A DNA stretch of 64,000 nt from Argyresthia goedartella (lineage: Eukaryota > Arthropoda > Insecta > Lepidoptera > Argyresthiidae). Every line of letters begins with the position of its first letter. Position 1 is the first letter of the stretch. The stretch covers positions 25,700,715 to 25,764,714 of the forward strand of contig OX463829.1 of NCBI GenBank assembly GCA_949825045.1. The letters run 5' to 3'. A program made the position numbers and the translations under genes. Positions 9,901 through 48,900 of this stretch are shown here, piece after piece. The notes beneath the pieces are model-generated. The model worked only from the letters and a program-made list of their open reading frames with translations. It ran no database searches and was not told the DNA's origin.

Positions 9901-12900
9901 CACGGCAAAAACACAAAAGCATGGAAAATAAACATAGCCTCAAAGTTAATAAATATATACATAGTCAGGTCATAAGTTCTGTCACATGTGCAATATGAAA
10001 TAATTTAGACATGTTTATTATTTATGTAAACATTTATATAGCAAAATGAACGTAATAAAACATAGATTCTTATGGTAATAAAGTTTATTCAAAATGACCC
10101 CCGGGATTTTGAATACAGGCCTTTATTCTGCGCGGCCAGTCGTCTATCGCAGCACGAACGAGGTCCATGTCAATATCGGCGGCTGCCTTAATCAAGGATG
10201 CCTTGAGTGACTCCAAATCAGGATGAGGCTTTGAGCAGGCCTTTTCCTCCAAGTGTTGCCATATCTTGTGATCTAACGGACTCAAATCTGGACTGGAGGA
10301 GGGCCAGTCTTCGTGCCGGATGAAGTCGATTTCACGCGCCGCCAGCCAGTCTTGTGTGCTTTTCGCTCTATGAGCTGGCGCAGAATCTTGTTGGAATACC
10401 CAGTGCCTGTTATTAAACATGGTATGAGAAACAGGTTCCACAAGGTTCTTGAGGACTGTATTTTGATACACAACTGCATTAGTTTTTACGCCTTTAACAC
10501 AAAAATTTACCTCAGTTAAGCCCCAATAAGAGACTCCCAACCAAACCATGAGCGAGGATGGAAAATGACCTCGTTGGACACGCGGAATACGGTTGCTCGC
10601 TTCTTCACTGCTGTTTGTTGTAGCTCTCGTCCACGGTGAAAAATTTTTCATCCGAAAAAAGAATTTCCCGATGCTTTTTTCCCGCGTACCGCTTCAACAA
10701 AGCGCGGCATCTCTTCAGTCTCAGGTCCATTAAACGAGCGTCCAAACGATGTCCTGTTTTTATTCGATATGCCCTAAGCCCTAAGTCTTCATTTAACACC
10801 CTTTTCAACGTGGTCCTGCTTAACCACATCTGAAGGGCCAACAGTTTCTGCTTACGTATGGGATTTCTTTGAATTCGCGCCTTCACAGCTTTTATCACTG
10901 CTGGAGTCCTAACAGAGCGAGGGCGACCACTTCTTGACCTGTCATCTACACTAGAGTCTTCATTGTATCGTTTTATGGTACGATAAACGAATCTTTTGGT
11001 TATATTCAAATTTTTCAGTAAGTCGAAAATCTGAATTGGCGCGTAACCGCAACGATGCAACGCAATAACTGCGACACGGTCTTCTTTAAGTGTCCACTCC
11101 ATATTTAAAAATGAGGAAAATTCTAAAAAGTACACATTTTTATGTTCATGAAAAATTCGAAATTCGAATTCAATAAACTTTTTTGTGGCCAGCGTTCTAA
11201 ATTCAAAAGTTTTTATTGTGTGACAGAACTTATGACCTGACTGTGTATTTGGCCTGGGTTGAGTCTAGAATCGTTTGGCAGGACGAGAGGGGTAAAAGGG
11301 GTTAAATCTGATAGGAGCAAGGTAATGCAAATTTATCGAATTATTAATAAAAATAGTTTCTAACCTCAAATCAGACAAAAAGCGATAACGAAACGTACAA
11401 ATGGGCAATTGAAGATTAAAATGGTGGTGTAAAACAGTCTGTGTCACGCAAAATCGTTGAAATAGAACGTAAAAAATAAAAACGCCATTTGCGTCATGTA
11501 TCATCATTCGTTTTCGTTCATTCCGTTTCTTCTAGAGTTTCGTTAATGTTTTTGTTGCGTTTCGTTTCGGAATAGAAAATCCAGATTAGGTCATCACACT
11601 TCCTAGGTAATCTTGTAGCTACACTCTAGAGTGTTTTTCATGTGCTGGAGGCGCGGAGGGACGCAGGGGACCGCGCACTGCTGCGCAACGAGTGAGACGG
11701 AGTGGCCGAGGATGCGGAGGCGTGCGTGACTGTGCTGCAGTACGGGGGCATCCCCGCAGCCCCCTAGTAGCCGGAGCTAAGGCGATTTATAAATATTAAT
11801 GCAAAATAGGTCACTTACGTAGCGAAAATTATGTAAACGTAATCTCAAAAATGAGGTTACTAAGTTATTGACATCATACGTCATTGATATGATATGCATC
11901 TAGGGATCTTAAATTAGCTCTTTTTCCATAAGTCATTGAAAATTTGCTGAACGATGTATTTATCTACTTGTATTTCAAAAGTTGTCTTGAGAGGTAATTC
12001 AAGGTTAAGACGAAATAATTAAAAAATAAGTTGCAATATAATGGCTCCGTGGTGCAGGAGATGCAGGTTCGATTCCTGACGAAGTACCAATGAGATAATA
12101 AATTCATCTTAAGTAAGACTGACGGACGTTTTATTTTAACGGTGATGGAAAACATAGTGAGGAAACCTTCTTTACTCCATAGCTGCTGGCTAACCCCCTG
12201 TCACGCAAAATGGAGTACTGAATAACTGGCTGAACGTGGGCACAATTGTGCCGCTGCCACCCCGTCTGGGAAAGGCATGACGCTATGTAATGTGTACTAG
12301 CCGGTCAGAATATCTGTGCACCTCGCTGGAATGCGGCGCCTCTCCCGCTTCCCCTGTCACCTCTCCGCGCACTCCCCGGTGCGACAGTATGCGACAGTAC
12401 GGTTAGCATCTTCGTTGCCGATACACGTCCCGATAATTTTGATATTTTCGCTTTGTTGGTGTTTTGTTTTTTATTTATTATTTATAGTTAAGTTTTTTTA
12501 ATACCACTAGGGGAAGACAGTTCGGAGAGTTCAGAAAGTGAGAGTGAGGAAGATACAATGTCAGGCATTGAGTCAATAATTTATAGTGACTGAGTTTAAT
12601 AATAAATGTTTTTGTAATCAAAATTATTGTTTTTTAATAACAAACCCTTCATCAATGATAAATTGATTTGAATAGGTTAGTAGTTTTTTTTTACCTCCAC
12701 ATTTCTCGAAATAACTTTTTTTCACACCGTACCCAGACCGCCGATATGACGTCACGAGGTCAGGTGCACAGATATTGTGACCGGGTAGTAGAAGTGCTAA
12801 TCCATGACCGCTGGTGTTTTGCAAGTTGCAAGACAAACAATCGATTTGGGCTACGGGTAGAATACTTTTTCAGTTTTCATTGCAACAAGCGGTTAAATTA

Positions 12901-27900: not shown

Positions 27901-30900
27901 TATCCCGATACCAATAAAATTCTAGTTCAACAAAAAAAAACTGTCCTATAAAGGGTTAAATAGCAATGGACAATCCATCAATCAGCTCTAATAATCTCTG
28001 GCATCTAGGAATTTAAATAGCAATAGACAATTCCACCAGTCAGCTCTATTAATCTCTGACATCTAGAAATTTAAATCGGAATTGACAATTCCACCAGTCA
28101 GCTCTGTTAATCTCTGGCATCTAGGAATTTAAATCGCAATAGACAATTCCACCAGTCAGCTCTATTAATCTCTGACATCTAGAAATTTAAATCGGAATTG
28201 ACAATTCCACCAGTCAGCTCTGTTAATCTCTGGCATCTAGGAATTTAAATCGCAATAGACAATTCCACCAGTCAGCTCTATTAATCTCTGTCATCTAGAA
28301 ATTTAAATCGCGATAGACAATTCCACCAGTCAGCTCTTTTAATCTCTGGCATCTAGGAAATTAAATCGCAATTGACAATCCATCAATCAGCTCTATTAAT
28401 CTCTGGCATCTAGGAATTTAAATCTTAATTGACAATCCATCAATCAGCTCTATTAATCTCTGGCATCTAGGAATTTAAATCTTAATTGACTATCCATCAA
28501 TCAGCTCTATTAATCTCTGGCATCTATGAATTTAAATCGCAATTGACAATCCATCAATCAGCTCTATTACTCTCTGGCATCTAGGAATTTAAATCGCAAT
28601 TGACGATTCCTTCAATCAGCTCTATTAATCTCTGGCATCTAGGAATTTAAATCGCAATTGACAATCCCACCAGTCAGCTCTATTAATCTCTGACATCTAG
28701 AAATCGAAATGTATGGTATGTATGGAAGGAAAAAAAAACAATTAAAAATATAATTTCTCAAAAGCCTGCCATCCAAATTATGTGAGAGAGCATCGAACGG
28801 GTTGATGAAATACGTAACTTGGGGTTGCTGATGGACAGTGCCCGCCGATTTGAGAACCATGTCGTTAGTACTGTGCATAACTGCTTCTACAGATTGAAAA
28901 TACTGTACAAAATCAGACCCTTCCTCAGTGTGAATCTTCGTGTGCAAATGTGCGAGTCCTTAGTGCTGTCTATACTTAATTATATGGACACGGTGTACGA
29001 CGCACGCCTTCTGAGCCGATCTAATCGTCTACTTCAGCGCGTTCAGAACGCGTGCGCTAGGTTCTGCTTCAATGTGCTACCCCGCACTCATGTCACCCCC
29101 TATATTAGTAAGTCCAAAGTTCTTAGTGCTAGAAGAAATCTTCACTTCGCGACACTATTGTTTGGAGTGGTAAGGTTTATGGCTCCGGAATACCTATATT
29201 CTAAACTTAACTGGTCCTACAGGAACCCGACCTATTCAAGAGCATCCTCGTTGCTGTTGTCATGTCCAAGAAACAAAACTGCTGCATTCCGTGGTAGTTT
29301 TCGCTACGCTTCTACGTAGTGCTGGAATACCATTCCCCCCCCCCCCCTCCATGACTTGAAATCAGTTACAACGTTTCGACACAAGCTCAAAACACATTTA
29401 CTGGCAGCTCAAAGATTCACACTTGGAGTCACAGCACCATGTTGTACACCACCACCACCACCACAACTACCCTACACTACACTACACTACACCCTATACT
29501 CAACATTTATTTATTATCCACATTACCTTTTCCCCTGCATAGAGTTTTTATTGCAATTGACGTGTGTTTTGACTGTGCATGGCTATACAGTTTTTCGTTG
29601 CTTAGTTTTAAGTTCTTAGTGTTTTTCGTTGCTTAGTTTTAAGTTCTTAGTTTTATAAAATGGTGTGAGCCGAAAACCAGCGTTACGTGTAGTTGCTACT
29701 CTTAACACATGCTGAGCTCAAGCCATTTTGTCATAAACTAGATCCTTTCATTATTATTATTTTCTTTCTTTCTTTCTATATTAAAAGGCCATTCTATATA
29801 TATATGAATTATGAAACAGGGTGCTCATTCCATACATATTAGAATTAGTAACCCTTCGCAATCCAAAGATGAACTGGGAGTAACGGTTGTAATTTAAATT
29901 ATGGCTTAAGTCAACATGTTAATCTAAGAATGTAAAAATGAAAATGTTACAGAATCGCAAATAGATTGGTCTTTAGCAAATCTCTTCAATATTTATAATC
30001 TATTAAATGTAAATAAAAGTGTCAAAGACAAATCGGTTGTTGTTATCTTGAAATGTAATCTCCTAGCGCCATCTGGTTGGATTTGCAATACTACAATGGT
30101 GCTGCACCAAGTTAAACACTACCAGTGATACACCAGTGAACTAAAGATACTTTCGTACATCTCTGATTACTCCGGTGACATATTTTTTCCTTCGTGGTAT
30201 CTGTATTACTATACTATTATAGTATCTGCGAGTAGAAAGAAATAAGACCGTAGTCATTTATTCTGACAGTCAGGCAGCTTTGAATGTGCTTAGGCAACCA
30301 ATGAATAAATCTGCACTAGTCAAAGAGTGTCAGGCAAGTCTTAACTCTTTGGGAAAAACATCAGAAATAATTATCGCATGGGTCCCCGGATATGAAGGGA
30401 TTCAAGGTAACGAAAAAGCTGATGAGCTGGCAAGAAACGGCGCTGATGAGCCTTTTTTTGGACCAGAACCAAGATTATCTATATCAGCGACTGTCACTAA
30501 AACATCTTCAACATGATAGCTACGCGAGATGCAAACCTTGTGTGAAAGAACACGAAAGACTAGGCAGTCTAAGATGTTTATCTTAAGACCCCAAAAAGGC
30601 TAACTATTTACTTAATCTCAGTAGGAAAAAATTTGCAACACTGGTGGTTAGGTGACAGGTCACTGAAAAATACATAATCACCTTTCATTATAAAAGCTCG
30701 TACTAGACCCATCATGCCCTCACTGTGGCTTGGAGGAAAGCAAAGAGGAAAGTAGCCAGCACTTTATGGGAGAATGCGTGATGTATTCAATCATAAGATG
30801 GCGAGTACTATGGATGTGGGGGATAGGATATGGAATAGAATTCATTAAGCGAACAAGAAGATTTGGGGAGGGACATCTGTTGAAACCAACAGCAACCAGT

Positions 30901-33900
30901 GCCCAAACACTGGGAATTGGGTGAAATAGTCACAATAGGGGACCGATCACCCGCCTGTTGTTCAGCGGGCGTCCCACCTTCATCATAAACATCATCATCA
31001 TCTGTGATTAGAACTATCGGAGCGTGTACCATAGTTATACAATATTGCCCACTCAGTTTTAACTAATTGAATTTCCATCTCGCAGTGAACACGCACATGC
31101 ACGCGGACCACGTGACCGGCACTGGCAAGCTCAGATCCATCCTCCCCGGCAGTAAGAGCATGATCAGTAAAGCGAGCGGGGCACAAGCGGACTTGTACCT
31201 GCAGGACGGGGATCTGGTGACTTTCGGGAAGCACAGGCTGGTGGCGACGGCGACGCCGGGACACACGAACGGGTGTTTCACTTATATCTGTCATGAGCAG
31301 GTCAGTTAGTTTTTGAACTTTGAACTCTTGAGGCCTTTTTTAATAAATATAGGCTAATAATGATAACTATCAAAAAGCTCAGCTTTGTAAGGGCGCGCGG
31401 AAGGTAATCCTTTGTAAGGGCGCGCGGAAGGTAATCCTTTGTAAGGGCGCGCGGAAGGTAATCCTTTGTAAGGGCGCGCGGAAGGTAATCCTTTGTAAGG
31501 GCGCGCGGAAGGTAATCCTTTGTAAGGGCGCGCGGAAGGTAATCCTTTGTAAGGGCGCGCGGAAGGTAATCCTTTGTAAGGGCGCGCGGAAGGTAATCCT
31601 TTGTAAGGGCGCGCGGAAGGTAATCCTTTGAGAACTTGTCTATGACCTGCTATTAATGTTCGGTAACCGCAGCGCCTTCGAGACCTTTCGGTGCTTTTTC
31701 CTTATGATTTTTCTGACACCATATTACAATAATTACAGTCCATATAATTTATGTTATCTAAACACGTATCATAAACCCTCTTTACTGCGTCCAAAAACCG
31801 CACGTTACGACCATCATAATGTTATTTACTTGGTAAAACTCATTTCTTATCTTAATATTGATACATTATGACCATACTGATACATACTGGAGGGCATTAA
31901 AACTCGAGAGTGGGTGTATGAAATAATATCACTCGAGAGTTTTAATGCCTAATTATTATGTACAGTTACATACACTAGTTTATCTACACACATATCATAA
32001 GCTCTCTTTGATGTGTTCAGGAACCGCATGTTCGACCGGCAATGTGGCATTGATAATTGCTCTGCACTTGCTTAGCATGTTCAGTAGCACCAACTTCACA
32101 GACAAACTAGGGGCGGCACGTCACGGCACGGTTTCTGATACGTGTGTAGATAAACTACTATTATGTTTTATTTTCGAGTTTTCAATCATATTCGGCAAAA
32201 ATAAATGTGAAATTAAATCACTATGTCAAAGCTGAAACCTAAGACTGTAATAGTTTTTTCATAAGTGTACCGCAAGGTGTGCGTAGTGGTCGAGTGTCTG
32301 CCTGACAAGCGAGAAGTCCGTTGTCCGAATCCCTTTCGGGGCCAGAAGCAATGTATGTGCCTATATACAGGGTGTCCCATAAGTCACACCTCACAGCAAC
32401 CCCGTAAGTAGTCCTTAGATGCAAATAAAATATGACCTCAGTGAAAGTTGCATTTAATTCGAGAAGTCGTCGGTTTAAGGGTTTAATTTAAATTCCCCAT
32501 TTTTATTGTTGGTGCCAGCCATTTATTGGATTGCCCCTTTTTTTTATTACTACGCTATCATGAACAGCTACTTCTGAGGAGTCAGTTGTAATTTTGTCAA
32601 AACCTTAAGTAGAGAGTACGAGAAATTGATGATTTAGTCTTAACTTAAATCTTCAGCAATTACATTGACTTTTCCTTTCATCATCAGCCGTGTTTATTTT
32701 TTCCAGACACGGTATGAGAACATACCTTGTTTGCTTATATTATGCCGATTCAGGAATTGTACAGACAGCATCAGAGAAAGTACCGCCCTTGGTATTGACA
32801 TAGAAGACCATAACATTTTTGACATTGAGTAAATTGCATGTTGGTCCGGAGGTTAACAAATTGGACTTGTGAACCGTAGGTCGCGAGTTCGATGCCACGG
32901 CAATGGAGGTTCTTTTTCCATTTTATAGCAGTTCTTGTTTATTTTTTATTTTCTGACTAGAAAAGCATATAAAATGTAGAAGTTACGCAATAACAAATAG
33001 GCATGTTGTTGAAAGAATATTTCATTGTTTATTCAAGTTATGATTTTTTATAGTGTTTTTCAAGGGATATCATATTTAGTTTTCTTAAAGTCTATTTGCT
33101 CATCTTATAGGTTTGTAAAAATACTATGGTTTTATGTAACGCTCACGCTAAACGAGAGATACTTACTTAAAATATTGTTTAAAAACTTCTCCTTTACTTG
33201 AAGGAATATCCCCCAGCATTTTCCAATTCCAACTTACTTGAGCATTATTTGAATGTATTTAAATGTTACTTTTTTTTTTGCGAGCAGTTTACTTCCAGCG
33301 TTAGTTAATAAAATAAACGAAAAACCAACTTGAAAAGGAAAACATATTCTATTTACAATTTGCACAAAAATTGCAGGTATTGAATGAATGATAATGGGTA
33401 GGGCAGTGTAACGATAATGATTTGCAGACATTATTAATATTGCTAGCAAATATTACAATATTTCATTAACTATAGCTCTGTGAACCTAATAACGTTTTAG
33501 AGAGAAAAACATGTTAAACTACGATGTAGTATAACAATTTACATCTCATATTTATCACAATTTTAGACAATATTAAAGACAAAAAATCTATTGAATTGCA
33601 ATACAGTATACCTATATAAACAGGGGAGTCAAATAATGCTTCACAAGCGTGAACTTTTATCTCGTTTAATAGCTTAAAGGGTGATCTTCACTATCTATTA
33701 TTTGCATGTATGACCATGTTGGAAGATGCACTGTTGTTTCGCATTATCTCCCAAGTTCTGTTGACCTCTTCGTCAAATTGCTGTTTAGATTTAACTTCAC
33801 TGGAATCCCAGTTCAGAACCATTTGCCCCCACAAGTTTTCTATTTGATTTAGGTCAGGACTTTTAGACGGCCAATTGAACACAGTTATGTCAGCCTGGGA

Positions 33901-36900
33901 TCACAGCCATTCCTGGACGAGTCGGGCAGGAGCAGTGCACCAAACCATTATCTTGGACTGGATGAATTTGGCCTTCATGGTATGCGACATGCACCGACGG
34001 CTGCATCACGTGCCTCAACACCTCCAAGTATCGCTGGGCATTCATAAGGCCGCCCACTTGCACAAGCTCTCCTGGGCCCATGGGTGACATCCATCCCTAA
34101 TACGCTTAAAAACAGTAAATATATAATTCTAATTTATTTACATACCATATGCAATCAGCAAGGCAACAATTGTTTATATACATATTCTTCATAATCTTAA
34201 ATATGGTAGTGAGATTAGCTTACCTAATTTTATACTCCCACATGTTCTCATATCTAACAAGTGTTGTGTCTCCTTATCCACTTACTATCCGTTTTTCTCA
34301 GTGCGTATAAATTTATTAGAAGAACACCACAGAAATATATACCGATATTAATACTAAATCAGTATTATAAAATAAATTATAACAGATCGACTGTTTCATT
34401 ATCTCACCGTTATAGAGAAGATAATGATATATTCATTAAGGTGATTCAAATGATTCATCTCTCGGGCAATTTTTTCAAAGCTCTGGTTTTGTTCCCAAAG
34501 AACAACTATTTTAGATTTTAAAAAGGTCATGAAACTAACCATAATAAGTATTTTTCAAGATAATTTAAAGAAAACTGATAAGAAATCGAGATAATCGCAC
34601 AAGGCTCAGCACGTTGTTTTCGTAAACTTTACAAACTTAGCCCCAACCATAATTTATTAAACGAAGTAAAAGTTGAAATCATTCCAATATCAACCTTACT
34701 CCATAGCTAATTATATCGTTTACAAGTTTCCGTTTAAATATAAAACCGTATAAAACGACGCTGACGTATTCAAACAAGGGTAAACAAAGACATAACTATT
34801 ATCCATACTGATTAGTTAGACAAGGATGCCGGGACAGAAACGTCGAATATCTTTGCAACCAATAAATGCATAATTTCGTATCAAAGCTATCCTCCGTAGC
34901 TCAGCGGTAACGAGCAAGTGAATATGACTCGGGCGGCCTAAGAGATTGAGGTTCCGATTTCGAGAATGATTAAATAATAAAAATTTGCAATTGGTATGAT
35001 ATAACCAAAGTCGATTTGATTAACAGGTTGTGTTTGACGGCCACGGGCAGAGTATTGAACCTCAACTTCTCTCTGCCTTGCGAAGTTAATGTTTTAAAAC
35101 TAGAATTAATACTACCCTTACTCATTAAAACGGGGCTCCGTCTAGTATGAAATGTGAAACATTACACATCACATCATTACTCATTTCCTACCGACTTTTA
35201 CTGTTTTTAGATGTATGAGAGCAAATGAGATGGCTAGTGCAATTAAGTCAACTAATCTAGGATTTATAATTTGAGGCCAGAAATGTAAACAAACAACTGT
35301 CATTTTCTAGAACAAAACCGTTGACTTTGATATTCATATTTCACTTTTTGTACTGGAAAATGACAGTTCTTTGCTTACATTTCTGGCCTCAAATTAAATT
35401 TCTGGCCTCAAATTAAAAATCCTGGTATAGTGAGATCAATTCCAGATGCATCATTAAGACTAAAGACGCTGCTGCTCGTGTGAAAGAGCTCTTAGGCTTA
35501 TTCGATGCATCTGAGGCAGTTCCACCTCCGGTGTCATTGTGACGTATTATTTATGGGAAACCCTGTATTTTTAGCTAATACATAAATAGCGTCACGCCTT
35601 TTGCCATACGGGATTGCGCCCACGTTTAGCCAAGGACTACACACCAGGCAGTACCTATACAGGTAGTGCCTGGTGTGTAGTCCCCTGACCCAGAGAGGCG
35701 CATCAGGTGAGGGGAGGAGATGTGCGGGAGCGCGGGTGGCCGCGCATGGGCTTCCGCCGCCTGCAATCATTTCGTGAGCGTTGATTGGCTCGCTAGTGGT
35801 AATGAGTAGTATTGCTTCTCGCGCATGCAATAAATAAATAAAAAAAAAAGGCTTATATCGACAAGACGCAACTTAGTACTTTTCAAGATTGAGGTGAAGC
35901 CTGCTAATATGGAATCTCATTTATGAAATCGATGCTATCTTATAGAAAATTTATTGAATGATATAGTATTTAAAAAAATCTAGGTAATTGCCTAAAATAG
36001 TAATGTCAAATTGAACAGAATTACCGACGCATTTTGTCAATTTCTGCTTTTCCTCGTCATTCTGAACCTTCGATATATGGGGAATACCTATGAAACTTAC
36101 GAAAATATAGGTTATATTTCAAACGGGTGGACGGAGTTTAATGCGGATTTATGTAGTTGGTTGTAGAATTTGAAGCGACGAGAGCGGCTATACAAGGTGA
36201 CATTTAATTAGCTGACCATATTTTGTGGAATGATAGTACTAATATAATATAACTTCTATACTATGAACTGATAATTATGAACAACTTTCCCCACGTAACA
36301 TATGGTCGCAAATGAAAAAAAAATTTCGTCCCTCAGTACATTGACCCGATCAGCTGATTACAAGTTACTAAGGCAGACCCAATTATTTTTTTCGTTTGCG
36401 GCCATATGTTTCTTGAGGAAAGTTATTCATAATTAAGGGTACTATCATTCCACAAAATATGGTCAGCTAATTAAATGTCACCTTGGATATAGAAGAGGTC
36501 TGGTGGCTATTACGGCTGGGGACCACTGGTCCAACAGCTTATGCTCGGACGTTCTATATATTGTTAGTAACCGAAGAAACTTCTCTTGCGCGATGCAGGA
36601 TCGATTGTCAATTGTTGACCGCCTGATAGGTGACGCCACAACTTCACTGCGATGGTTTTTTAATATATTTTATTACAAGCGATTCAGCGCTTCAAATGTT
36701 ATCAGCCTAAATAGAAAACAAGCGAACCACATTCTAGTCGTAAGATTTCATTTATTGTGTCAGGCAAGGGTGTTTTATATTTTCACTTTAAGTACTTCGA
36801 CACAAAGTTAACTTGAATGCGTTTCCCCTCACTCGCTCGCTCGCTCTCTCCCTCGACGACACTATGACGTTATCAGAGCGAGGTGCCAAGTTATGGTGAT

Positions 36901-39900
36901 ACCGAACAAAATGTATTTTTTTTTCGAATCCATTTACTCCACTATAAAGTCATCTACAGATTGACTTTTTGGTTAACGTTTATTGAGCATTTGATTAAGA
37001 TTCTCACTGAAGGAAAACGGCGATTGGATGAAATTTTCTCGATATAATTTAATCACGAAAAGAGCTCTAAATTGTTTTATTTTTTCCTGTAATTCTGAAA
37101 TCCTAACTAATTTTATTGCGCAATTGCATACAAAATGTAGATATTATGTACTTACCTTGAAAATCTTTTTGACATAATAGCGTAGTTTATTTTTAAACAT
37201 ATTCGTATGTGGTTTGGCGCTACGTTATTTCAATTTCAGTCGAGCGCATTGTTTGCGGTCTCTTTTCTTTCTATGTGGAAGTAATTAACGCTGTCACTTT
37301 CGTTTACATTTGCATTACTTTTACCGATATTTTTCCGTATCACCTTGACTTTGCCGTGTCATATATTCCAGAGTATAGCGTTCACTGGCGACACGCTGCT
37401 CATCAGAGGCTGCGGCCGCACGGACTTCCAGGAAGGCTCGCCGGAGACGCTCTACTCCTCGGTGCATCGACGCATCTTCACGCTGCCCGACCACTACACT
37501 GTGTACCCTGCGCATGACTACAAGGTAAAATAAAAAAAAACCGGTCAAGTGCGAGTCGGACCCGCGCACGAAGGGTTCTGTGATACCGCACGAAGAAACT
37601 GGTGTTTCCTTAATGGTACCCCGCATTTTAACCATACCTTTCTCGGTATTATTCTGCTATAAGTAACGACCTCGTTTTTTTTTTCAAAATCAGTGGTTTC
37701 GGAGATGAGGTGGGGAATGGATTTTTTGTCTTTTAAACTTTTTTAATTATGAAAAACAAATATTTGAAATCCTTGCAACAAGCTTTTTCATTGAACATGA
37801 CACTCTATATAGTTTTTTTTTGTTTTACCCCTCAAATTCAAAATGATTTTGTTTGGGTCACAATAATACTTAAGGTAAGGGAACCAAATTTCAACTTAAT
37901 TGTCTCAGAAACCGGTCGATTTATACAGGTGTCCCTTAAATAATGGTCCAATGTTAAGGGGAAGACAGCTTGCCTAATTTCCTAAAACTAATTTAATTAT
38001 TTAAAAACACGATATATGTACCTAACATACCGGTTTTGCACTTTCTCCACCAAGAAGCTATATTTCGCTTCATGTAGGTGCCAGATAATCGCACTATTTC
38101 TATGTTGATTCTGACTAAAGACCAAAGCGTTATAAAGGGCTCTGACATCTTCAATGTTCCTAAACTCTAGATTGTCTCATTAGAAAACTGAGATTTTTAT
38201 GCGCTTGCTTAGTGCCATCTACAATGTGATTACGAAACGTTATATTTCACGCGCATTCCGGGATCTTTAACCCACTTACCCGTGTAATTTCCGCGGCATC
38301 TACCGAGTACTGGTGCAGAGTCATCAGCGTACACTTCCCAACATTGAAGTATAGTTAGTTGAGTTTGCTCCACTCCACCACACGATCTATATCCCTTTGC
38401 AGCTTTTCGCAATCCGAAATGTCCCTTACTTCCAGGAATAACTTGAGGTCATCGGCAAACAAGAGACAGATAGCGTCCTTAATGACCTTCGGGAGGTCAT
38501 TAATCACAATGATAAATTCTAAAGGCCCCAAGGTACTGCCCTGACTAACGCCAGAAAATGTTATATACGCGTTTTCCACAAACTGTCTCCGGATTTTAAG
38601 ATAGCTCACAAAAAACCGCATACGTTGAGGAGTAAAGCCGACCCCACGTAATTTCTCCAGAAGGACGTCGATGTCCACTCAGTAATAGGGTCCTGTTTGG
38701 TGCGGAACCCTAAAAAGAAAGCAAGAAAAAGCATTTGTTTGCCACGACAAAAAAAATACAAGGCTTTTAAATCAACATCACATCAACAGATTATTTGTGG
38801 CAAAGAAGACTGGACTAAGCTTAATACCGTGTGATGCTGGTGTGACATCAACACAGCGCTGTTTATCAGGCCAGCTCATATGACTTGGGGCGGCCTATTT
38901 ACTTAAAATCCGTTTATTCATTAGCTGCTATAAAATATATAATTGGACTTAGTAGTATATTTATAACAGTAAATAAAAGACTCGTATCACCACAATCCAT
39001 TTATATTCCAAAGATAATAATGTTTAAAACTTACCCAAGAAAATAATTTATTAAAACAACGACGTAGTACACATCATTTTTTCTCGAAACTTAAATGGTA
39101 TCAATTGGAGGCCGGTCCACACTGGACGAATGTGGCGAACGGAAGCGACGGGGTAAAACAAAAAAATCTGTTTCCTAATTCTTAAAATAATAATTTCGTC
39201 TGATAAGCGATATGGTTTATTTCAGTAAGCCCTGAGGCTAAATCTAAATCTTGGTTCCTTGGGCACAGCACCAGGTGCATTTATGAGTTTGTGTTTGGTA
39301 TTGATAGAAAATGCAGTCGGGTTATTTATTTTATAATAACTCTACTTGTTTAAATAATAAATTGTACTCATAGCCAGTTTTTGTTTCTTTCATTATTCCT
39401 TAAAAAGTAATAACCATGTGATCAATGGATTTTATGATTCATTTAGCAATGATGTAATGATCCGCGATGGAAAAAATGTTAATTAATGGTTTTGTGACGA
39501 AAAGCGGGTATTTACGATTTCCATACACGTTTTGACACCTGAATGTTACGATACAAACGATTGCTGTGTCATGGAGGAGTTGCTCACGTCCGAAAGAAAT
39601 ACTTGGTTCCTACCGCTCTTCAGATTCTTTCGGGTAGTGTTAATGACCAACAAAATATTCACAAGACGCTAATTTCCTGGTTCTCTTAGTAAATTGGGAT
39701 GTTTCAAATACACTTGACACCAATGACACTTGAAAAAACGAGACCAATATAATTCAGTACGGAATGAAAAATAACATAACATAAACATAAGCATTTACAT
39801 ACAGGCATAAATTATTTATAAATTGCGCAAAAAATACAAAACCATAGACTATGACTTTTTAATTTTTATATTTTAACCAGGCCCAGATCATTTCATCTTT

Positions 39901-42900
39901 CTAATTAGTTGTCCATCTACACGCCTAATCAAATTATGCTCGGCCTAAGTAATGTTAGAAAATCTTTTTTGTTTTAAGTGTTTTAAAATATCCTTAGCAC
40001 TTATCACACTAATAGTGTGACTACTTAAATACACCACCAATTTTTTTTTTATGATCACTACAAATTCAAGAGCAGTTTGAACTCAATGTTTTGGATTTAC
40101 TACTAGGCGTTTCTAATTATCTGGCCACCACTGTATGTTCACGCCATTCTCGTAAACCCAAATCTAACCTAGATTTTAAGCAAAAGATCGATACAGTCAA
40201 TTTAGTGGGGTGGGGCAGAGGATATATATAGATATAGGTAAAGCACAGACCTATATCTATCTATATCCTCACTAGTGCTCCACTAAACTGACTGCATCGA
40301 CTGCGCTAAGGACTGTCCCTTCACTGTGGTTCGGCTAATATATTATGTTCGAACAAAGATCGTGCTTTTATTCATCACTGCTTCGCATCCCATATCTACT
40401 AGCTAACGCAATAATGCAAGGACCGCAAGGATAAATACACCACCTAATTTACTCTAATACACCACACACTAAAGCCAGTCGCGCTCGCCGCGGCTCCTAG
40501 TCACCGCTCGCCCAGTGTGGACGCGCCATGTGTCAAATGTCGTAGTGTCAGTATTTTTTTTCGGTAGATTAATAAGAAATAGATTGTAGTAAAAGTAAAT
40601 TTTGACTTTTGTGCATCGATATAAATACTAAGGATAGGCCTTCCCGTGCTCAATTTCTTACCATTTTGAGGCTAAGAAAAATAGCGCCCCTGTCGGAATT
40701 CGTCGGAACCAAGACAGTACGAAAAATTGTAACGGCGGCGTCACGGTCGGTCACGTTCCGATTTGTGGTGTATAGACACAATATTAGGAAAGTTGATCTA
40801 CGGATAACTCTCAAATACCCGGTGACTTTTAATCGGTGATTAGGAGTAGAAATAAAATATCTAGCTAAAATTTTACTTAAGGGGCGAGGTCTCACGCAAT
40901 TACCTCATGTTCAATATATAAAAAGTTGAAACATAATTAAATAGGCATATAAATTTTTGTCTTTGCCGTTAAATTATGAAAGAGGGTGTAAGCTCACAGA
41001 TACACAATAGTAGCGTGACTTGGAATTTAAGATCTTGATTTTGATTTATAAGTAATAAAATACCTAATCATAGAAAAAGTTATGAAAATTGGTACCTGAT
41101 ATTACTGATTAAGTCATCGTGTATAAAATAGAGTATTTAGCAATACATTACACGCTAACATAGCGTCACGTCTTTTCCCATACGGGCTGGCAGAGGCACA
41201 ACTGTGCCGGTCTGTGCCCACTTAGCTAGTGATTTAATACTCCATCTTGCGTGTCAGGGGGCAAGCCCATCGCCGCAGCTAATGTAATGAAGCCGGAGTA
41301 ATGAAGATTTCCTCACGATGTTTTCCATCACCGTTAGGACATCCGCACAGTGGTCTAGGATTTGTTCCTCCATACTCATAGGAACATAATGTCTGGAATA
41401 ATTATAAAAAAATATGCAATGTCTCCGGTATACCTTCTTATATGTCATATTAAAACATGGAGTGGATTAGTTGCTCCACAAGTGAGAAAAAAAATGTTGA
41501 TTATTTTTTTTGTATGGGAGAAAACACTTAAAGTACATTATTTCGGAACTAATTACAACTGATGGGCTGGTGCTCACATGGTCTATTGTACCTTGCACGC
41601 TGAACATAATGACATATAATTCATGCACTTTTCGGTGCAGCTTTGGATGTAGTTAACTTTTAAAAAATTAAATATTTAGTATGAGCGTATTCGTTTATGT
41701 TCGACATCATGAGAGTAGTTCATAGGTAGATAGATAGATAGATAGATAGATAAATTAATTTATTCATTGCAACATGGTACACACACAAATACATAATTTT
41801 AACTCAAACTTTAAGAAGAAAAATCTGCAAAAAGAAAACAAAACACAGCAGTTAAATAAAACAAACAATAAATAATAAAATTATACAAGCAAAACATTAA
41901 GGTACGGTAAGGATAACTATGTGGTATTGTGACTGTACCGCGACAATGAAATGGCCCTGACTCAGCAATGTCACAGACGAATCTGTGACGCTGATATTCT
42001 GCCAGAGCCAGTACGGACGAGACAACGGTCTGCTCAAGTACACATTTAACAACGTAAAATATGATGATTTTAATAAAATTGTTGAATAAAATAAATAGGT
42101 AGAATGCAGCAAACATGAATACTAGGTACTTGTGTTTATGTAGGTGCATCATCAATAACTTTGGGGATGTCGTTAGTTAATAGCCCGTTATAATAACTTT
42201 GGGGATATTGCTAGTTAATAGCCCGTGTTTGGCTTTTATGAATAATAATGAGTTAAAGAAATTACATTGAATGACTAACCAGATCGTTATAGTAATGGTT
42301 TAGTTTCAAGCTTAATGAAAAACATTAATTAAGGGAATTCCAATATATATAGGGACATTTAAGATGGGTTAATTCAGTAGTTTCTCGCACTTGTAAGCGC
42401 TTACTATACTTCATACGTTCTATTCATTTCCGCGTTATAATGGAAGGATTTGTAACCAATTTGGACATTTTCATGTTTGTTGCAAATAACAGTTGTTTCT
42501 CAGAGCCCATTGTATTATTTGAAGTTTTTGTGAATGCGGTTAACTTATCAGAAAGTGAAAAGAAAGAATTGAAACAATTCTGCCAGACATATACATGCGC
42601 TTTGAAACAAAAGTGGATCTTGTCTAGCCGTGCGAGGCATACATTTATCAAGAAGTTTGAAACATGGTTGGGAAAAGACATAATATGGCCTAAGAATTTG
42701 AAGGAAAAGATGACACCATTATTGTCAGCAGAGAAACAGCCATGTTCCAGTTCTCATTTCAGTGTAAATGAGGATGCATCAACATCCTGCCAACCAGATA
42801 TGTGCAGTGTAAGTACCTCAACATCAATTATGATTGAAAGGAAACCGTTTTCGGAGTTAAGCCCCCTACAGAAGAGAAGGAGAGTGCAAGAACTCTTAAC

Positions 42901-45900
42901 AAACTCTAACAAACTCTAACTCTTAACATGCGCTTTGAAACAAAAGTGGATCTTGTCTAGCCGTGCGAGGCATACATTTATCAAGAAGTTTGAAACATGG
43001 TTGGGAAAAGACATAATATGGCCTAAGAATTTGAAGGAAAAGATGACACCATTATTGTCAGCAGAGAAACAGCCATGTTCCAGTTCTCATTTCAGTGTAA
43101 ATGAGGATGCATCAACATCCTGCCAACCAGATATGTGCAGTGTAAGTACCTCAACATCAATTATGATTGAAAGGAAACCGTTTTCGGAGTTAAGCCCCCT
43201 ACAGAAGAGAAGGAGAGTGCAAGAACTCTTAACAAATAGTACGGAAAGCCTTGCTTACGCAACAGGTTTAAAAGCAGATAGCCAGGATGCAGCAGATATA
43301 ATAAAACTTGTTATCGAGAAACCTGAAGAGGCAACAAAGTTAAAGGAATTATTGAAGCCGAAAAAAGCAGTGCCCATATATTCCGCAGATAAAGCTTTAG
43401 GTATTTTGACCTCTTTGAAGCTATCAAAGTGGCAATATTTGACTATGAGAGCTAGTGCAATAGCAGAAGGAGTGTCACTTTATCCTGCATACAATGCCAT
43501 CCTAGAGGCAAAAAAGGAAGTCTACACATCAAGAGAAACCACAGAATTCAACAAAAGTGGCGCAAGAGTACAGCTTCAAGCAGTTTTGGACAAAACTGTA
43601 GCTAGATTTGGAAAATTCTTACGTTTGGAAGATTCGCTGGCTGGTAAAGAACTGTTGCTAATTTGCAAATGGGGCTTTGATGGAGCTTCGGGACAAAGCC
43701 TTTACAAGCAAGCAACTGACGGAGATGATGACTCCAGTATATTCATGTGCTCCTTTGTGCCTTTGCGCTTTGTATGTGGTGAGAAAGTGGTGTGGGAAAA
43801 CTCAAAACCATCTTCTACAACGCTGTGTAGATCACTTTTCTTCAAGTTTGTCAACGAAAATAAGTTAGATATATGCCAAGAACAAGCCCTAATAGAAGCC
43901 GAGATTGCTGCCCTGGAGCCTTCTATTATGGGGAGCCACGCTGTTAAGCATTCCATGCTTATGACAATGATAGATGGAAAAATCACTTCTGCACTATCAA
44001 ACACATCAACGCAGACTTGTGACATTTGTCGAGCTACCCCTTCGGAAATGAATCAGTTAGAAAAGGTTTCACAGTGAGTTATTCAATAAAGTAATAAAAT
44101 AACGTTGTCGTTCTGCATTACATTACTTGCCTTTTTACTAACTTGTTTATTTTCTTTACAGAAAACCAGTTTCAGAAGAGATTTACCAATATGGTTTATC
44201 CACTCTTCATGCGTGGATCAGGTGTATGGAGTGTCTGCTCCATATTTCGTACAGACTGGACTTTAAGAAATGGCAAGCCAGAGATGACAGTAGTAAGCAG
44301 TTGATGAAAAGTAGAAAAGAAGCAATGCAACATAAGTTCCGTGATGAAATGGGCCTTTTAATAGACATCGTCAAACAAGGTGAGTTAAAATTATTATTTC
44401 ATAACGATTCTTTTCTCCAAGTTGATTATTATATTATAAATATAAATTTGATACCTATTAAAGTATATTTAATGTCCCTACCGAGGGGCACAGGCTTTTG
44501 CCCGGATACGAGTAAGATTGAGCCATATCTCTTCTCCTAGTGCAGTATTATTTTTTGTTCTAGGCTCGGGGACCACAAATGACGGGAACACAGCCAGAAC
44601 TTTTTTTAGCAATCCAGAAAAAACTGCAGCTATCACAGGCTTGGATTCGGGTTTGATCCAAACATTTGATACAATTTTGCGTGTACTTGCCTGTGGGGAA
44701 CCCATTAACATTGAAGCGTTTGAAAGTTTTGCGCGGCTTACTGCAGAAATGTATGTAGAGCTCTATGGCTGGTATAACATGCCTTCGAGTGTCCACAAAC
44801 TTTTACTGCATGGTGCTGAAATCATCAAACACTTTAATGTTATTCCCATTGGAAAATTATCAGAAGAGGCATCGGAAGCTAGAAACAAAGACTTTAGAAA
44901 AATCCGGGAACATCATTCGCGCAAATTTTGTCGGGAAGCGACAAACGAAGACATATTTTATAGTCTTCTTGTGTCGTCAGATCCCTACCTGTCTAGCATA
45001 AGACCTGTGTTAAGAAAAGGTAAAAAAACGCTCGTGACTTATGATATGAAACATCTCATAATTAATGACGATTCAGTGATAGATAAAGAAAACATAGAAT
45101 TTGTTGATGTTAATGCATCATTGATGGACTCGGATAAAGAGGACTGTGATGATGACTAAGCTAAGACTCACTTTTTTATTTTGTCCTTGACGTCTTTTAT
45201 TAGATATATCATAGTAATATTTGTGTTTTTATTGCAGTATGTTGTATAGGTATTACGAATCATGTCATTAAATTAAGAGATTACCTAAATATTTGTGATT
45301 AGTACATAGTTTCTAATTCTAAGAGTTACCCAAATATTTGGTATATCTATACATATTTAAATTACCTCTATTATTGTTAATAAAGATCATTAGCAGCCTG
45401 TTGACTAATGACAGGTTTATTGTTATTGATGTATTTTGCCTTATTTTTTTTACTTTTTAACAAGCTATTATTAATTATTATATTAACCATATTGTAATTT
45501 CCGTATCAAAAGAATAAAATAAAATAACTTATAAACTTAGTTTTTGTTATTATCTGCATTTCTATTATTTTTACGGTATTTTCACTCTCAAAGAGATCGG
45601 CTGGCATCTCATTATGTCAAAGATTATAATGATAAAGCTGATACAAAAAATTCAAAATTTCAAAAAATAACTACTTCCAAAAGCTGCACCGAAAAGTGCA
45701 TGAATTATATAACATTATGTTCAGTATGCCATGTATAATAGATCATGTGAGCACCAGCCCATCAGTTGTAATTAGTTCCGAAATAATGTACTTTAAGTGT
45801 TTTCTCCCATACAAAAAAATAATCAACATTTTTTTTCTCACTTGTGGAGCAACTAATCCACTCCATGTTTTAATATGACATATAGGGAGGTATACCAGAG

Positions 45901-48900
45901 ACATTACATATTTTTTTATAATTATTCCAGACATTAAGAATAAAGAATTTCCTATGAGTTTGGAGGCCAAATCCTAGACCACTGTGATCCGGTTAGATTA
46001 TTTATCCTTATATTATTCTGTTGCGTCGCGCGTCGCTACAAAGTAACGTCAGTCGAATGGTTGATTTTCGTTTGAGGATTTTTTCGAGAACAATATTTTA
46101 TAGATAATCAATTTGAAGCCAATAGTAATAGAAAATATAATACTTACTTGTGATACGACACTTCCTGTTTTTGTGTTTTGCGATTTGGGTATGATTTACA
46201 ATGGATTTACACCTTTTTACGTCGCAGGTCACCATTTTTGTTTTTGCTGCCGATATGTCAATCGGCTGTTACCGTCCAAGCGCGACTGATTGCAAACAGT
46301 CCAATTTTCCCGATTTTGTACTGTTTTTGTAGCGACACTTTCAAGCGCTTCGTGCCCTGTCCCTACTATTCAAGTCTGTGCTTTTGTGTATATTTTATTA
46401 ATTGTTTAGGTGTCGTTTGTGTCTCCTACCGAATAAACTTTGCTTCTGCCTCCCCGTGAAGGAAAAAGGTGGTGCGCTGCGCCTTTTGTAAAAGATGAAT
46501 ATTGTCGGGGGGAACAGGACGTCTGCAGGAAATGATCCCACAGCCCAGCACGGTACCCCTGGGTAGTGTTAACGAGCAACGAATCAATACAAAAAATTGC
46601 AGATTCTCGAAAGAAAACTTGTCCAAGTAAAGTGAAATCTGTGACGCGAAACACACGTAACTTCGATGAAATTAACCTGAGTTGTTAGATCGTCTTTAGT
46701 AGGAAATTGATTTTGATTGATGATTATTTTGTCCAGGGCCTGACAGCAACCACGGTGGGCGAAGAGAAGAAATACAACCCTCGCCTTACGAAGAGTTTGG
46801 ACGAGTTCATCAAGATTATGGCTGGCCTGAATCTGCCTTACCCCAAGATGATCGGTGAGTCACGCCAATGTCTTTGTCTAAAGTACTATTTTTAATTTGA
46901 GGCCAGAAATGTACACAACAAATTTCATTTTCTTGAAAATGAACAAACCGTTGACTTTGACATTCATATTCGATTGTTTGTACTGGAAAATGACAGTTCA
47001 TTGTTTACATTTCTGGCCTCAAATTAAAAATTCCACTTTAATGACACCTAATCTCAAACGGTCTTTGCAGATGGCGCTGGTGTAACCAACCACACCAGCT
47101 GGAGCCTGTCTGTCTGTCAAAGTTGCCAAAGTCTTTTACTTCTTATAATATGAGGCGTGCTAATCATTTGAGGTTATTTTTGACGTGGTTTTGAACCTAA
47201 CCTCAGATGAATGAAACTCGTACACTGCGAGATTTTTGAGTTTGAAAATTTAAATATTATTTAAATTATATATGTCACCGTGAGCTTGTCAAAACCGTTA
47301 GTATGTAATCTAACATTTTTTCTCTCGTTAGTTTATAAACTATCGATAAATTGTAAACTGTACCGTACTGCTTACGATATGACACGTTAGTTTATAATAA
47401 TACCGTTAAATTGTGAACTGGTTTAAACTTGAATTGCAAACGAAATACCAGGGCAAACACTGCGGTAGCTTCGGTGAATACTAGAGGGGGCGAGCGTAGC
47501 GAGGCCCCCGAATAGTCTTCGTGTTAGTTTGTCATGTAAGAACAAAATAAACGTAAATTCTAAAACCTGTCGGTCTCGTTTACAATTTGTTGATAGTTTA
47601 CAAACGAACACGTTACGGTGATATATACACAGTCAGGTCATAAGTTCTGTCACACAATAAAAACTTTTGAATTTAGAACGCTAGCCACAAAAAAGTTTAT
47701 TGAATTCGAATTTCGAATTTTTCATGAAAATAAAAATGTGTACTTTTTAGAATTTTCCTCATTTTTAAATATGGAGTGGACACTTAAAGAAGACCGTGTC
47801 GCAGTTATTGCGTTGCATCGTTGCGGTTACGCGCCAATTCAGATTTTCGACTTACTGAAAAATTGTAATATAACCAAAAGATTCGTTTATCGTACCATAA
47901 AACGATACAATGAAGACTCTAGTGTAGATGACAGGTCAAGAAGTGGTCGCCCTCGCTCTGTTAGGACTCCAGCAGTGATAAAAGCTGTGAAGGCGCGAAT
48001 TCAAAGAAATCCCATACGTAAGCAGAAACTGTTGGCCCTTCAGATGGGGTTAAGCAGGACCACGGTGAAAAGGGTGTTAAATGAAGACTTAGGGCTTAGG
48101 GCATATCGAAGAAAAACAGGACATCGTTTGGACGCTCGTTTAATGGACCTGAGACTGAAGAGATGCCGCGCTTTGTTGAAGCGGTACGCGGGAAAAAAGC
48201 ATCGGGAAATTCTTTTTTCGGATGAAAAAATTTTCACCGTGGAGGAGAGCTACAACAAACAAAATGATAAGGTGTACGCACACAGCAGTGAAGAAGCGAG
48301 CAACCGTATTCCGCGTGTCCAACGAGGTCATTTTCCATCCTCGCTCATGGTTTGGTTGGGAGTCTCTTATTGGGGCTTAACTGAGGTACATTTTTGTGAG
48401 AAAGGCGTAAAAACGAATGCAGTTGTGTATCAAAATACAGTCCTCAAGAACCTTGTGGAACCTGTTTCTCATACCATGTTTAATAACAGGCACTGGGTAT
48501 TCCAACAAGATTCTACGCCAGCTCATAGAGCGAAAAGCACACAAGACTGGCTGGCGGCGCGTGAAATCGACTTCATCCGGCACGAAGACTGGCCCTCCTC
48601 CAGTCTAGATTTGAGTCCGTTAGATTACAAGATATGGCAACACTTGGAGGAAAAGGCCTGCTCAAAGCCTCATCCTGATTTGGAGTCACTCAAGGCATCC
48701 TTGATTAAGGCAGCCGCCGATATTGACACGGACCTCGTTCGTGCTGCGATAGACGACTGGCCGCGCAGAATAAAGGCCTGTATTCAAAATCGCGGGGGTC
48801 ATTTTGAATAAACTTTATTACCATAAGAATCTATGTTTTATTAAGTTCATTTTGCTATATAAATGTTTACATAAATAATAAACATGTCTAAATTATTTCA

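Follow-up and report, generated by a model that had tools for sequence, protein, structure and literature searches.

Among transposases of solved structure, the closest to the element described here is that of Hztransib from Helicoverpa zea (PDB 6PQN, 6PQR, 6PQX, 6PQY and 6PR5). Hztransib is described as 3518 bp long, with long inverted repeats, a GCTCG 5-bp duplication and a deduced protein of 489 residues (PMC1852546). Most Transibs, Hztransib included, have symmetric ends with a clear heptamer and little or no nonamer similarity, and 5-bp duplications are GC-biased for both Transib and RAG (PMC8289069). At some Transib ends the heptamer is identical to the consensus of the recombination signal sequence (RSS) (PMC6941560); 12/23-like spacing occurs in a few Transibs (PMC8355894), and a nonamer-binding-like domain has also been reported (PMC9435367). 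Here we analyze a unit within 64,000 nucleotides of the lepidopteran Argyresthia goedartella (contig OX463829.1, positions 25,700,715 to 25,764,714; hereafter the window, whose own numbering is used throughout). We are nearly certain that it is a copy of a Transib cut-and-paste DNA transposon of an Hztransib-like family, broken in its own gene and located within an ETHE1-like gene's intron.

Boundaries and terminal repeats

The unit occupies positions 41346-45986 (4641 bp) between exact ATCCG flanks. Both ends read CACAGTGGTCTAGGATTTG inward, and this sequence is found once per strand in the window. The unit length, flanks and ends proposed in the initial annotation were borne out by the sequence.

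41341..41345, no strand: left target-site duplication, ATCCG, from sequence
41346..41714, + strand: left terminal inverted repeat, starting with heptamer CACAGTG (41346-41352); matches reverse-complemented 45607-45986 at 87% identity
41731..42094, no strand: nested insertion, 364 bp, with a (GATA)n end; 9-bp ATAGGTAGA repeats at 41722-41730 and 42095-42103
45607..45986, − strand: right terminal inverted repeat, heptamer CACAGTG at 45980-45986, from the repeat alignment
45987..45991, no strand: right target-site duplication, ATCCG, from sequence

The left repeat (369 bp) pairs with the right one (380 bp) at about 87% identity, and the first 19 bp are identical at both ends. The repeats are long, as had been noticed, but measure about 370-380 bp instead of about 320 bp. 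The right repeat of the window copy is 87-88% identical to the left ends of other loci. Because same-side repeats match at 97-99% across loci (left ends, 39 loci; the right ends of L018 and L030 give 98%), the difference between left and right repeats characterizes the family and does not measure age.

The 364-bp insertion adjoins the left repeat and is missing in 39/39 other loci, in which element position 385 abuts position 750; among the loci searched it is present only in the window's own (L001). It is perhaps a reversed SINE (short interspersed nuclear element) or LINE (long interspersed nuclear element) fragment.

Long repeats together with a perfect heptamer had been taken to distinguish this unit from known Transibs. 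This does not hold, since Hztransib has long repeats (PMC1852546) and RSS-like heptamers are described for Transibs (PMC8289069, PMC6941560). With each feature previously described, the element is real but ordinary. An RSS nonamer was not found at 12/23 bp spacing: in the outermost 60 bp of each end the best match to ACAAAAACC has 5/9 positions and lies at other spacings. The ends therefore do not have the V(D)J RSS layout, with a nonamer 12 or 23 bp from the heptamer.

Transposase gene and its damage

The gene was annotated initially as having three exons and about 704 codons. Three exons are present, with GT/AG borders that are the same in 13/13 of the other copies for which every site could be placed (in 7/20 copies they were not locatable). 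The 704 codons, on the other hand, correspond to the open frame of other copies.

42440..44073, + strand: transposase exon 1, with in-frame stop TAA at 42917-42919; piece 42920-44074 matches 6PQN, E = 5.9e-59
42593..43236, no strand: tandem duplication in exon 1, carrying the stop; 42593-42903 equals 42926-43236 (311 bp identical, plus 22 bp of filler)
43109..43480, + strand: region ahead of the HzTransib-like core, including a part comparable to the RAG1 nonamer-binding domain in some structure-alignment rows
43679..43681, + strand: first catalytic Asp, from the alignment to Hztransib
43973..43975, + strand: second catalytic Asp, from the alignment to Hztransib
44162..44379, + strand: transposase exon 2, GT/AG borders
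44564..45159, + strand: transposase exon 3 and stop, catalytic Glu at 44875-44877; piece 44473-45156 matches 6PQN, E = 9.5e-59

In the window copy the frame starting at ATG 42440 ends at the TAA, within the joint of the 333-bp tandem duplication, and the copy does not have the open frame of an active transposon. Judging by sequence only, among 20 long loci the frame is open over 704 codons in two and over 692 in a third; these three open copies count as one insertion because their flanks are shared. The duplicated segment is present as a single copy in 32/32 informative other loci, the remaining 7/39 being deleted or interrupted there. The window copy is thus broken by an in-frame stop that arose via the tandem duplication, and it additionally carries the 364-bp insert.

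It is improbable that the duplication and its stop are assembly errors and that the window copy is in fact open in frame. The 100% identity of the 311-bp stretches and the absence of the duplication from every informative locus speak for such an error; against it, the 22-bp filler at the joint, built of AACTCT/CTCTAAC repeats, resembles templated end-joining filler and not a copied read overlap.

Relationship to Hztransib and RAG1

A homology search with the protein, suggested in the initial annotation, returned HzTransib as the best match, ahead of RAG1L and RAG1. For the pieces of the window gene searched against PDB, HzTransib was far ahead (E-values listed above), followed by amphioxus RAG1L (E = 6.6e-4, piece 44473-45156) and vertebrate RAG1 (E of at least 0.42). 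The 704-codon open copy matched 6PQN with E = 2.5e-156 and 249 identical residues out of 476 aligned (52%), as against 8e-5 for RAG1L and 0.03 for RAG1. A profile of exon-1 relatives gave 9e-134 for HzTransib, 0.004 for RAG1L and 0.0011 for RAG1. Residues aligned with Hztransib D126, D225 and E436 (numbering of PMC6941560, with a single offset of 17 fitting all three) are D, D and E at window positions 43679, 43973 and 44875.

Fold searches gave the same ranking. With an exon-1 model (AlphaFold model of P0001, a public protein with 99% identity; mean pLDDT 82.6, pTM 0.52) HzTransib chains came first (E = 2.5e-22), followed by RAG1 (1.7e-11) and BbRAGL (1.1e-7). In some rows the model aligns from residue 130-136 onward with RAG1 from 391-408 onward, at a root-mean-square deviation of 9-12; the N-terminal domain modelled alone produced no significant fold match. 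The match to the Pfam RAG1 family is under the family cut-off.

Because HzTransib outranks RAG1L and RAG1 in both sequence and fold searches, we dropped assignment of the unit to RAGL. That it represents a RAG-like (ProtoRAG/RAGL) transposon, directly akin to RAG1, is highly improbable: RAG1 and RAG1L are indeed among the sequence- and fold-search matches, but with the far weaker E-values given above, and no RAG2-like gene was seen. The latter result comes from a Pfam scan (E 0.01) of the window unit, which found no family in 8/8 non-transposase frames of at least 75 residues, and which short or split genes would escape. The unit shares with RAG1/RAG2 and ProtoRAG the CAC-starting heptamer, the GC-biased 5-bp duplication and the DDE core fold. 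It differs from them in having no visible RAG2 partner, no nonamer at 12/23 bp and the same first 19 bp at both ends; the RAGL/ProtoRAG arrangement of RAG1L with a convergent RAG2L was not found in the window copy. A transposase homologous to Transib with its DDE residues, a GC-rich 5-bp duplication, an RSS-like heptamer at the start of the terminal repeats and, within the scope of the same scan, a single gene without RAG2 are features that the unit has in common with the Transib superfamily. The proposal of a RAG1/Transib-like transposon is supported in its Transib identity, 5-bp duplication and RSS-type heptamer.

The Argyresthia family resembles Hztransib in its DDE transposase, long inverted repeats and 5-bp duplication. 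In contrast to the 489 residues of Hztransib, however, its open frame has 704 codons in three exons, with about 200 residues ahead of the aligned core. Other Transib-like proteins of insects were matched in moths, butterflies and beetles, with that of the weevil Cylas formicarius spanning 99% of the exon-1 query. Species-named insect matches are 29-68% identical to this query, and one public contig 99%. Viral contigs searched with P0001 yielded no confirmed relative.

Copies in the genome

The genome search covered 1.11 Gb in 89 contigs. The left 555 bp retrieved the window's own locus, at least 39 left ends elsewhere and, for one of those copies, its right end as well; this is a lower bound, as the best 40 of 833 candidates were scored. 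A genome-wide search with the ends had also been proposed initially, and end patterns with up to two mismatches occur at 118 left and 129 right ends, compared with 0 for the reversed control. Therefore, the ends of the unit are not due to chance. Among 100 listed places per end type, a right end no more than 40 kb away could be assigned to 66 left ends. Spacing is 3.7-4.2 kb in 20 of these pairs, 0.7-3.7 kb in 21 and longer in 25, the window's 4641 bp included. The commonest unit is thus about 3.9 kb, compared with 3518 bp in Hztransib. The short pairs are as expected for internally deleted copies moved in trans, while the longest could reflect nested insertions or mispairing.

That the unit is a domesticated RAG1-like gene with a host function can be dismissed as a negligible prospect, since, although it lies co-oriented within a host gene, its frame is broken (barring an assembly error at the stop), its 5-bp duplication and both ends are intact, and the genome holds the many family ends counted above.

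Compared with the majority sequence of 40 copies, of which it is one, the window copy shows 1.04% divergence over its left 385 bp, and the others 0-1.6%. Variants in this region are mostly private (78 versus 17 shared). The sample consists of the window copy and the 39 best-scoring others, so that the true spread is larger. The insertion had been described as recent, with which this divergence agrees loosely.

Two further features of the family were observed. A right-end variant, GATTCGGCC, is present in 20 of the 100 right ends listed. For at least nine of them a left-end partner lies 1.0-3.2 kb away, which suggests a non-autonomous subfamily. Loci L006-L008 (C30 at 21.69, 22.11 and 22.83 Mb) have identical 300-bp left flanks and represent a segmental duplication carrying the transposon.

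Target sites and end variants

Both ends were read for 19 independent insertions, with L006-L008, L009/L010 (flanks 89% alike) and L038/L039 each counted once. An exact 5-bp duplication is present in 13/19, the window included. The target consensus derives from 30 left flanks, namely the 40 minus duplicates (L007, L008, L010, L039) and other-ended copies (L024, L026, L032, L033, L036, L038); L009, with its CGCAGTG end, was retained. The five positions read C in 24, G in 24, mixed, C in 25 and G in 23 of the 30 flanks; CGNCG is fitted exactly by 10 and with up to one mismatch by 27. GC content is 83% in the duplications (30 sites) versus 41% at a distance of 101-300 bp. Insertions L026, L032 and L033, as well as the flanks of L027 and L037, are located in GACG/CGTC microsatellites, whose sequence is similar to that of the CGNCG-like target.

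Several observations weigh against the reading of the unit as a Transib cut-and-paste copy. Two of the 13 exact duplications (L036 and C23:28403956) require a left end two bases short (CAGTG). The other 6/19 insertions are not cleanly exact: L044 is one base off, L010 is exact with end CGCAGTG and one base off with CAGTG, and four are ambiguous (L026, L032 and L033 in the microsatellites, L038 with degraded ends). CACAGTG is present at 31/40 left ends, the window's own among them, and 9/40 read otherwise. Finally, neither an empty site nor a transposition event was seen.

CGCAGTG is found at 9 or more of the 118 left ends (seven in the first 100 listed, plus L009 and L010) and at two of the 100 listed right ends (129 in total). 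A CGCAGTG-ended sublineage was considered and rejected, as the left 385 bp holds no variant exclusive to those copies beyond the end itself. In L036/L074 and L071/L072 the duplications, GCTCG and CTTCG, are exact only if placed directly against CAGTG. It is nevertheless unlikely that some insertions used left ends lacking two bases, CAGTG for CACAGTG; in L010, L026 and L032 (the latter two in microsatellites) a 5-bp match results if both bases are assigned to the element instead, which speaks against this idea. If the short ends were integration products, and not the result of later CA loss, the enzyme could join ends without the first CA of the heptamer. CA loss after insertion, shortened-end integration and plain substitution are all possible sources of CGCAGTG and CAGTG ends.

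Proposed history of the window copy

In intact relatives a single transposase would bind the terminal repeats and, by analogy with Hztransib, would cut exactly at CACAGTG, first nicking and then forming a hairpin on the flank. It would then join both ends to GC-rich CGNCG-like targets at positions 5 bp apart, and one such event presumably placed the window copy in the ETHE1-like intron. The copy carries the 364-bp insert and the internal tandem duplication, the sequence of these two lesions being inferred. With the latter stopping its own gene, the copy would be movable only with enzyme from another copy.

Genomic neighborhood

The host gene was located through pieces matched in searched frames, so that their limits are not exact exon borders.

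31067..46853, + strand: ETHE1-like (persulfide dioxygenase) host gene, pieces within 31067-31306, 37285-37521 and 46737-46853

The first piece matches mitochondrial ETHE1 (4CHL, E = 4.5e-26), the second is hydroxyacylglutathione-hydrolase-like (E = 1.1e-9) and the third again matches 4CHL (E = 1.7e-8). The second and third pieces enclose the intron that holds the transposon, which has the orientation of the gene; coding pieces on both sides confirm the initial placement in an intron. A minisatellite at 31305-31701, beside the first piece, encodes 9-residue repeats in several frames.

Two look-alike transposase genes, 47597-48808 (+) and 10088-11264 (−), have HTH_29/HTH_32 matches, the second with a sub-threshold DDE_3 match; the first is a 404-residue open frame immediately downstream of the Transib. 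Retrotransposon-like fragments of reverse transcriptase and RNase H are found at 52205-52717 (−), 38358-38678 (−) and 30223-30513 (+).

Significance

These results leave the existing picture of Transib and RAG unchanged. They add a multi-copy Hztransib-type family, in which some copies are open in frame and the ends carry the consensus RSS heptamer, and which provides a natural set of ends usable for Transib/RAG comparison.

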